This document shows, one piece after another, positions 8,875 to 10,944 of a stretch of 64,000 bases of DNA. The position numbers and the translations under genes were made by a program. Location: assembly GCF_008065155.1 (NCBI RefSeq), contig NZ_CP042819.1, positions 124,001-188,000 on the forward strand, given 5' to 3'. Origin of the DNA: Octadecabacter sp. SW4 (lineage in GTDB: Bacteria > Pseudomonadota > Alphaproteobacteria > Rhodobacterales > Rhodobacteraceae). Position 1 is the first letter of the stretch. The number at the start of each line of letters is the position of its first letter. The notes beneath the pieces were generated by a model. That model searched no databases. It saw only the letters and a program-made list of their open reading frames with translations, and was not told the origin of the DNA.

Positions 8875-9783
8875 TCAACCCATGCCCCCGATGCGGTGCG
8901 CGTCGACACACGCGCGCTGGGCGCATTCCAATTCGATTGTCGTGTGCCTGATCCCGAACTTGTCAGCCAGTCGCGCCTTGATCGCCTGTTTCAACGCATC
9001 TGCAGCCACCCATTCGCCGCCCCTCAGCACCACGTGCGCCTGAAAGGCTGGCGCGTGTTCCTGCATTTGCCACAGATATGCCTGGTGAACATCGGTTACC
9101 CCGTCCAGATCCTTGATCGCCGCGATCACGTCATCAAGCGCCAGATCATCGGGCGCGCCCAGCATCAGGATACGGATTACCCCGCCGATTTCCTTGAACG
9201 ACATCCATATAATGTAACCTGCGATCAGCAGGGTCACCGCAGGATCAACCAGTCGCCAGTCGTATAGCAGGATCAGCGTGCCAGCGATGATAACAGCGAC
9301 TGACGCTGCCGCATCGGCCAGATTATGAAGAAACGCCGCGCGGATATTGACGCTGTTCTTGGACATCGAGAACGTCAACATGGCCGTCGCTATGTCGATG
9401 ATCAAGGCGACCCCAGCGAGTATGACCACCAGCCAACCGTCAACGGGCTGCGGATCAAACAGCCGCCAAACGGCCTCGTAAGTCAGATAAATCCCGATGA
9501 TAATCAATGTGGTATAGTTGATCAGTGCCGCGACGACTTCTATCCGGCCATAGCCAAATGGCATTTCCGCATTGGCAGGACGGCGCGCGATCTTGCGGGC
9601 GGCAAAGGCAATCACCAGCGCCATCGCGTCTGACAGATTGTGAATCGCGTCCGCGATCAGCGCCATGCTGCCCGCAAGGATTCCCCCGACGATCTGTGCA
9701 ACGGTCAGCAGTAGATTCACCGCAATCGCGGCCCCGACACGGCGGTCCCCCGCATCTGCGTCAATGTGGTGATGTCCGGCCAT
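8875..9783 (-). CDS. Cation diffusion facilitator (CDF) heavy-metal/H+ antiporter
   Basis: CDF proteins export Zn2+, Cd2+, Co2+ or similar ions from the cytoplasm in exchange for protons. The 302-residue product shows six hydrophobic segments and two HxxxD-type transport sites, HNLSD at 48-52 and HNLAD in the fifth membrane segment, plus a C-terminal cytoplasmic domain with HVVLRGG. A His-rich start (MAGHHHID) may bind metal. The start is preceded by AAGGAA. Its promoter has the 19-bp spacer and dyad typical of MerR-family control, supporting metal induction. The metal specificity is not evident. Confidence 0.92.
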   Translation of the reverse strand: MAGHHHIDADAGDRRVGAAIAVNLLLTVAQIVGGILAGSMALIADAIHNLSDAMALVIAFAARKIARRPANAEMPFGYGRIEVVAALINYTTLIIIGIYLTYEAVWRLFDPQPVDGWLVVILAGVALIIDIATAMLTFSMSKNSVNIRAAFLHNLADAAASVAVIIAGTLILLYDWRLVDPAVTLLIAGYIIWMSFKEIGGVIRILMLGAPDDLALDDVIAAIKDLDGVTDVHQAYLWQMQEHAPAFQAHVVLRGGEWVAADALKQAIKARLADKFGIRHTTIELECAQRACVDAHRIGGMG

Positions 9784-9812: not shown

Positions 9813-9843
9813 TACCTAGTGTCTCTAGTTGCTAGAGGTTCAA
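9813..9843 (-). promoter_or_regulatory. MerR-type metal-responsive promoter of the CDF gene
   Basis: Reading the minus strand, a -35 TTGAAC (9838-9843) and a -10 TAGGTA (9813-9818) are separated by 19 bp. The spacer contains a perfect dyad CTCTAG-n3-CTAGAG (9823-9837). Over-long spacers with a dyad are the hallmark of promoters activated by MerR-family regulators such as ZntR, CadR or CueR. The predicted RNA start lies about 23 nt before the CDF ATG. Confidence 0.8.
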
Positions 9844-9857
9844 GAGGCTTCTTGAGT

Positions 9858-9947
9858 ATGTTGTCAATCGGTCGTCTATCGCAATTCACCGGCTTAAAAG
9901 TTCAAACGATCCGATACGATGAAGACACCCGGTTGATCATCAACGCG
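9858..9947 (+). pseudogene. Truncated MerR-family regulator (N-terminal DNA-binding part only)
   Basis: Translation from the ATG at 9858 gives MLSIGRLSQFTGLKVQTIRY, matching the start of MerR helix-turn-helix domains. After DEDTRLI the similarity stops: the second half of the DNA-binding domain, the dimerisation helix and the metal-binding C terminus are absent, and a convergent OmpA-like gene begins at 9991. The tyrosine pair usual after IR is reduced to YD. It lies divergent from the CDF exporter, where a ZntR/CadR-type regulator is expected, so this is most likely the remnant of the original regulator. Confidence 0.65.
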
Positions 9948-9990
9948 GCCCACGGTGCGTGCGGATCACCACAATCGCAAAAACCATCGC

Positions 9991-10944
9991 CTATTCGGTC
10001 GAAATCAGGATCACCTCGACCCGCCGGTTCGCCTCGCGCCCTTCGGCCGTCAGGTTCGCGCGCACGGGCGACAGAAATCCCATGCCTTCGGCCTGTAGCT
10101 GGGCGCGGGTCACGCCGTAATCGCTGACCAACCGTTCAAGCACCGATCCCGCGCGGCGCTTTGACAGTGCGATATTGCCCTCAAGCGACCCTTCGGAATC
10201 CGTATGCCCCACCAGAGCGACCAGCCGCGCAGGGTGCGCGGCCAGATAATCGGCCAGCGTTTGCAGCGACTCATACGGCCCATCGTCAAGCTGGGCCGAG
10301 CCGGTCTCAAACGTCAGATCTGGCAAAATCACATGGCCATCCCGTTCCAAGGCCTCTGCGAAATCGCCCGCCGGTGCAGCCACGGTCGCGCGCAAATCCG
10401 GAGCGCTTGTTTCGGCGATGGCCGCGCCGCTGGGCGGGCCGACACGGGTGACCTGCACAAATCCAGCGCTGCTGCTGCGGCTGACCAAAAGGCTAACGAG
10501 TTCGCTGCCCGCATCGCTGTCACGGCGCGCCGCAAGATACTGAAAATCACCCAGATCCACATGCATGTCGGGTGCCGGAATCACATCAAGCGCAAAGCGG
10601 AAATCGAACCCGCCGCAGCCTTCGGTTTCGCAACTGAACACAACCTCGAAACCGCCGTCGCGCAATTGGTCCCGCAGCGGCAAAAGGATCTGCAACGCCG
10701 TCAACCGGCCGGCGTCTATGCGCCAGGCTTGTCGCGTCACCTCGCCCTCGCCGGTCAGGATTGGCATGGTGCCCTGTTCCCAGGCGCCCACTGGCATGGC
10801 GTAGCTGCCGATCGGTTCAACGATCTCGGCGCGCAGGTCCGCATTGCCCGGAAATTCAAGCGTGACGGCCCGCACGATTGTGGGCAGGCACATCAGCACG
10901 ATTGCCACTACCCGACCACAGAATGTGACTGATCTGGACTTCAT
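9991..10944 (-). CDS. OmpA-family peptidoglycan-binding protein
   Basis: The 317-residue product has a signal peptide (residues 1 to about 26, ending IVRA) and a C-terminal OmpA domain (about 215-317) with LVGHTDSEGS, NIALSKRRA and NRRVEV, the residues that hold peptidoglycan diaminopimelate. The N-terminal 180 residues are unassigned. Its ATG overlaps the stop of the upstream GNAT gene by one base (TGATG), so it is probably translated as the last gene of the cinA-type/GNAT/ompA operon. Longer upstream starts lie inside the GNAT gene and are not supported. Confidence 0.88.
   Translation of the reverse strand: MKSRSVTFCGRVVAIVLMCLPTIVRAVTLEFPGNADLRAEIVEPIGSYAMPVGAWEQGTMPILTGEGEVTRQAWRIDAGRLTALQILLPLRDQLRDGGFEVVFSCETEGCGGFDFRFALDVIPAPDMHVDLGDFQYLAARRDSDAGSELVSLLVSRSSSAGFVQVTRVGPPSGAAIAETSAPDLRATVAAPAGDFAEALERDGHVILPDLTFETGSAQLDDGPYESLQTLADYLAAHPARLVALVGHTDSEGSLEGNIALSKRRAGSVLERLVSDYGVTRAQLQAEGMGFLSPVRANLTAEGREANRRVEVILISTE

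Follow-up and report, generated by a model that had tools for sequence, protein, structure and literature searches.

An Octadecabacter sp. SW4 locus built around a CDF family cation exporter gene has as good as certainly lost its own MerR regulator and has kept the long-spacer promoter that goes with one. On balance, the most likely state of this locus is that the retained promoter is now activated in trans by a CadR/PbrR-like protein. The window referred to below is the whole 64,000-nucleotide stretch of DNA that was analyzed, and the features discussed are collected in Table 1.

The exporter, its promoter and the regulator relic

The exporter matches the Pfam families Cation_efflux (E 3.7e-47) and ZT_dimer, both over the cut-off, and the NCBIfam CDF superfamily at 244 bits, and it reached no metal-specific equivalog in NCBIfam. 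The nearest genome is that of an uncultured Octadecabacter MAG (G001, here called the sister), whose CDF protein is 84% identical (pN 0.086, pS 0.66), and the gene overall is under purifying selection. Its ATG (9783, minus strand) lies about 30 bp downstream of a promoter whose boxes are 19 bp apart (spacer CTCTAGCAACTAGAGACAC) and enclose a perfect 6-3-6 dyad, which confirms on the minus strand the -35, spacer dyad and -10 given for the exporter in the preliminary description.

Table 1. Positions in the window of the exporter gene, its promoter elements and the remains of the regulator gene.
Feature	Position	Strand	Basis or remark
CDF family cation exporter, 302 aa, intact	8875..9783	-	Pfam, NCBIfam
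-35 element TTGAAC	9843-9838	-	identical in the sister
Operator dyad CTCTAG-CAA-CTAGAG, perfect, MerR-type, within the 19-bp spacer	9837-9823	-	predicted from pattern and comparison
-10 element TAGGTA	9818-9813	-	19 bp from the -35; compare TAGGTT, TAGATA, TAAGTA in relatives
merR relic, 5' part, ~34 HTH codons with Y21D and G25R	9858..9959	+	comparison with the sister MerR gene
merR relic, 3' scrap, from the final ~40 nt of merR, in a shifted frame	9953..9990	+	match to the sister MerR gene

The CTCTAG-n3-CTAGAG dyad occurs a single time in the window and in none of 100 dinucleotide shuffles, and the combined pattern of -35 and dyad, with zero mismatches, is found within the window only at the CDF promoter. 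On a 31-nt profile of MerR-CDF promoters built from 19 relatives, with the sister excluded, this promoter scores 36.8 bits (the leave-one-out range of the 19 is 28.6-45.5), and the second-best position in the window scores only 5.8 bits. The center of the dyad is 7 bp from the -35 box, which is the value given for CueR/CadR-PbrR sites (PMC5045206). Identical half-sites are also present in the sister and at L013, L087, L099, L114 and other loci. The final A of TAGGTA might be taken for a degraded -10 box, an idea that we rejected because TAGATA, TAAGTA and TACGTA occur in relatives with intact regulators.

At the same spot the sister has a complete divergent MerR of 137 aa, together with a dyad of identical half-sites, and 19 further relatives likewise have an intact divergent MerR and a dyad promoter. 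In the window, by contrast, the CDF gene still stands beside the dyad promoter but a complete divergent MerR gene is missing, so the earlier claim that the local regulator was lost is well supported. What stands in its place is a frame that begins at the ATG at 9858, divergent to the CDF gene, and reads MLSIGRLSQFTGLKVQTIRYDEDTRLIINAAHGACGS; Pfam MerR matches it over 25 of 38 positions, below the cut-off (E 7.8e-4). In an affine-gap alignment with the sister's intact gene, in-frame homology extends to approximately codon 34 (~9959), and a net loss of ~275 bp separates this part from the 3' scrap (the two overlap in Table 1 because their junction is placed only approximately). The score of the 3' match was reached by 2 of 5000 shuffles and by 12 of 5000 random pieces of the window. 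The preliminary description had a truncated MerR here, with about 28 HTH codons followed by unrelated sequence. The truncation stands, but the homology is longer, and since the scrap matches the 3' end of MerR, the supposedly unrelated sequence is in part the gene's own tail; wholly unrelated sequence after codon 28 is thereby rejected. Within the relic, Tyr21 and Gly25, both invariant in 22 relatives (20 local MerRs and two CadR-like proteins), are replaced by Asp and Arg, and the frame lacks the wings, the dimerization helix and the metal-binding cysteines of a MerR-family regulator. The relic's open frame (9819-10127) comprises 102 codons from a GTG at 9819, or ~90 from the ATG, and runs antisense into the 3' end of an OmpA-like neighbor (minus strand, ending at 9991).

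Across 20 MerR-CDF loci (L013, L019, L041, L087, L090-L092, L098, L099, L114, L148, L151, L170, L172, L175, L193, L198, L212, L213 and L218), residue x of the recognition helix, [KR][VI]xT[IV]R, tracks the operator. Of the 14 loci with Pro as x, 12 have C in position 3 of each half-site (CTCTAG, CTCCAG), and all six loci with Thr have A there (CTATAG, CTACAG). In the relic, x is Gln, as in the CadR-like proteins.

Age of the loss and retention of the promoter

Nonsynonymous divergence over 25 HTH codons was compared with that of the CDF gene in 45 functional MerR-CDF locus pairs, for which the HTH/CDF ratio is 0.23-1.14 and the slope 0.73. Between relic and sister the HTH pN is 0.291, as against the CDF value given above, and the resulting ratio of 3.4, well outside that of the functional pairs, indicates that the loss is old. 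Roughly 13 replacements in the HTH are above expectation, and the excess divergence, counted as change after the end of constraint, comes to ~0.23 changes per site (5-95%: 0.13-0.34). None of the 18 bases of the core promoter (TTGAAC and the 12 dyad bases) differs from the sister; the predictive probability of this without selection is ~0.02, or 0.04 under the most cautious HTH ratio, these estimates of age and conservation being based on 25 codons and a single intact comparator from the same genus. An old relic beside 18 unchanged bases favors a promoter that is still in use, and by this statistical evidence selection apparently went on preserving it long after constraint on the regulator had ended.

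Candidate regulators and related promoters

The preliminary description had proposed a genome search for other ZntR-, CadR- or CueR-like genes with matching operators, and the search was productive: the genome encodes eight MerR-family genes, among them one CueR-like and two CadR/PbrR-like genes, the latter at C1:2935225-2935653 (chromosome) and C3:36315-36740 (a plasmid-sized contig). Both CadR/PbrR-like proteins have the recognition helix KVQT[IV]RYYEQ, and the top PDB match of the C1 protein is CadR. Against NCBIfam they score 109 bits, short of the CadR-PbrR equivalog cut-off of 151, and they also miss the ZntR and CueR cut-offs, so their metal is uncertain.

Operators in the genome were located by pattern search only, which gave six further CTNNAG-type promoters of like architecture. 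Three precede Zn/Cd/Pb-type (ZntA-like) P1B ATPases (C1:2941786, C2:36989 and C3:23943), and among the others are promoters upstream of a DUF411-like gene and of an SCO/PCuAC-like cluster, both identified only by eye. CDF paralogues on C2 and C3, 61% identical to the window's CDF, are downstream of or adjoin ATPase genes with operators. Both of these plasmid-sized contigs carry a related module (G000:C2:32565-36943, L039; G000:C3:23943-28230, L040) that consists of a CTNNAG promoter, the Zn/Cd/Pb-type P-ATPase, the CDF paralogue and, by eye, an lspA-like gene. At G000:C1:410732-413923 (L004), which is probably a mercury locus, a MerR gene adjoins what by eye is a MerT-like membrane protein gene, with the site TTGAGCCTGTATCAGCTACAG between them.

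Operators beside CadR-like genes in relatives have the half-sites CTACAG (8), CTCTAG (8), CTATAG (7) and CTCCAG (3), 26 in all, which places the half-site of the window promoter among the two commonest of the CadR clade. In G162 and G282, CadR-like genes whose products are 82-83% identical to the C1 protein stand beside fully palindromic CTCTAG-n3-CTAGAG sites (TTGAACCTCTAGCGGCTAGAG and TTGAACCTCTAGTGGCTAGAG), with half-sites as in the window promoter. On a profile of CadR sites, however, the window promoter scores 26.0 bits, below the 29.9-38.6 of the CadR sites themselves, which counts against capture by a CadR-like protein. On the same profile the sister promoter, with a MerR of its own beside it, scores 25.7 bits, so that no adaptation to a new regulator shows; the promoter is a possible CadR-like target by sequence, and not an optimized one.

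Of the 136 regions examined upstream of related CDF genes (with a few overlapping loci), 20, the sister included, have the dyad with a divergent MerR. Six have a dyad near the CDF gene but no complete divergent MerR, namely the window, G032, G064, G232, G282 and G073. The last three are dyad-promoter exporters of the window's CDF subfamily with a CadR-like gene nearby. G032 has an orphan exporter promoter with no adjacent MerR and a CadR-like gene on a different contig, and G064 has the dyad CTCTAG-TGG-CTAGAG at its CDF gene, again with no adjacent MerR, and a different contig of that genome carries a solo divergon-type MerR (GVKVPTIRYYEQ). A search for MerR relics beside the G032 and G064 promoters gave only weak, scattered matches, none of them convincing. 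All three true orphans have another such regulator in the genome, compared with 6 of the 19 genomes that possess a local MerR (P 0.055), and for all six loci the association gives P 0.005; the link of the three true orphan promoters to another regulator is thus weak. The G064 solo MerR (C61:171670-172074, L287) lies amid genes that by eye are of the glycine betaine/proline transport type and mandelate racemase-like. No operator is near it, and the genome's only exact operator is the one before the CDF gene, which is unlinked.

Alternative explanations and relation to known systems

In the state that we consider most likely, an internal deletion of the size found by comparison with the sister removed the regulator of a MerR-CDF divergon, and the exporter and its promoter would have been kept by selection. 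One of the two CadR/PbrR-like proteins, C1 or C3, would then occupy the CTCTAG half-sites and activate by untwisting the spacer of 19 bp, in the manner of MerR-family activators, the inducer presumably being a divalent metal (Zn, Cd or Pb). The main rival, which we consider a rather less probable but serious contender, is that the promoter is unregulated, with weak basal transcription from the long spacer and a dyad that is a remnant not yet decayed. Its fit is better to the lost regulator's profile than to the CadR-like one, with no adaptation visible, and the two CDF paralogues on C2 and C3 suggest that this copy may be redundant. Against a remnant stand the intact CDF reading frame and the improbability that 18 core bases would be unchanged beside so old a relic. 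The preliminary description had left the choice between an exporter that is silent and one captured by another MerR-family regulator. The CadR-like genes, the operators and the conserved dyad speak for the latter, although the lack of adaptation does not, and capture is a plausible reading.

The remaining explanations are much less probable. With eight MerR-family genes in the genome, control might lie with a different one, either the merT-linked MerR (C1:412 kb) or the CueR-like one (C1:2779 kb), but this is improbable, as the sites linked to them carry different half-sites (TTGAGCCTGTATCAGCTACAG and TTAACCTTCAAGCCCCTTAAG, respectively) and their recognition helices differ. An error of sequencing or assembly in place of a true, complete merR is more improbable still. 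The preliminary description had asked for a check for a frameshift or assembly error at 9930-9990, and we rejected this as the main cause because ~275 bp are absent and the remaining HTH is strongly diverged, with two invariant residues altered. The assembly, moreover, consists of 3 contigs and is 100% complete. A similarly slight chance attaches to the idea that the relic still yields a short DNA-binding protein acting on the operator. Its frame is open to 10127, but MerR-family activators function as dimers, and the relic has lost the dimerization helix along with the wings and cysteines and carries both substitutions.

MerR-CDF divergons are already known (PMC1526738), and the window locus is a decayed example of one, not a new type of system; a literature search for MerR pseudogenes with retained promoters found nothing on point. 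The CadR-type divergon of P. putida pWW0 and A. lwoffii pKLH202 (PMC1526738) likewise pairs a CDF transporter with a divergently oriented MerR-family gene for metal sensing, and has a palindrome within a 19-20 bp spacer, but there the regulator is present, whereas here it is a relic and only exporter and promoter are left. Brucella melitensis BMEI0053/BMEI0054 (PMC1526738) resembles the window in having a CadR-type palindrome within a divergon for which decay or rewiring is suspected, but in the reverse sense, as it has the regulator and lacks the long-spacer promoter. PbrR/PpbrA of Cupriavidus metallidurans (PMC3431237) resembles the window in its 19-bp spacer with a dyad and in the several MerR paralogues per genome, but its regulator is intact and cognate and its target is a P-type ATPase operon, not a CDF gene. 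The paralogues PbrR2 and PbrR3 are reported to cross-regulate PpbrA only to a very low degree (PMC3431237), which counts against capture by a CadR-like protein.

We tentatively suggest, somewhat short of considering it probable, that the exporter moved from its own MerR into the regulon of the paralogous CadR-like regulators on the chromosome and the plasmid-sized contig by way of a shared CTNNAG half-site code, with the operator maintained by selection as the former regulator fell into decay. Takeover of promoters among MerR paralogues is usually considered to be limited by operator specificity. The sister, with an intact regulator (a search of its genome found a single exact operator and, apart from the local MerR, no CadR-like gene), and the window species, with two CadR-like genes and no local regulator, form a ready pair for asking whether one MerR paralogue can take charge of another's promoters. 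The locus is a small, testable natural experiment on how a gene persists once its dedicated regulator is gone. If the proposed reading is true, it would be a natural replacement of a regulator without a change of operator, paralleled by comparable trans arrangements in two or more other Rhodobacteraceae-type genomes.
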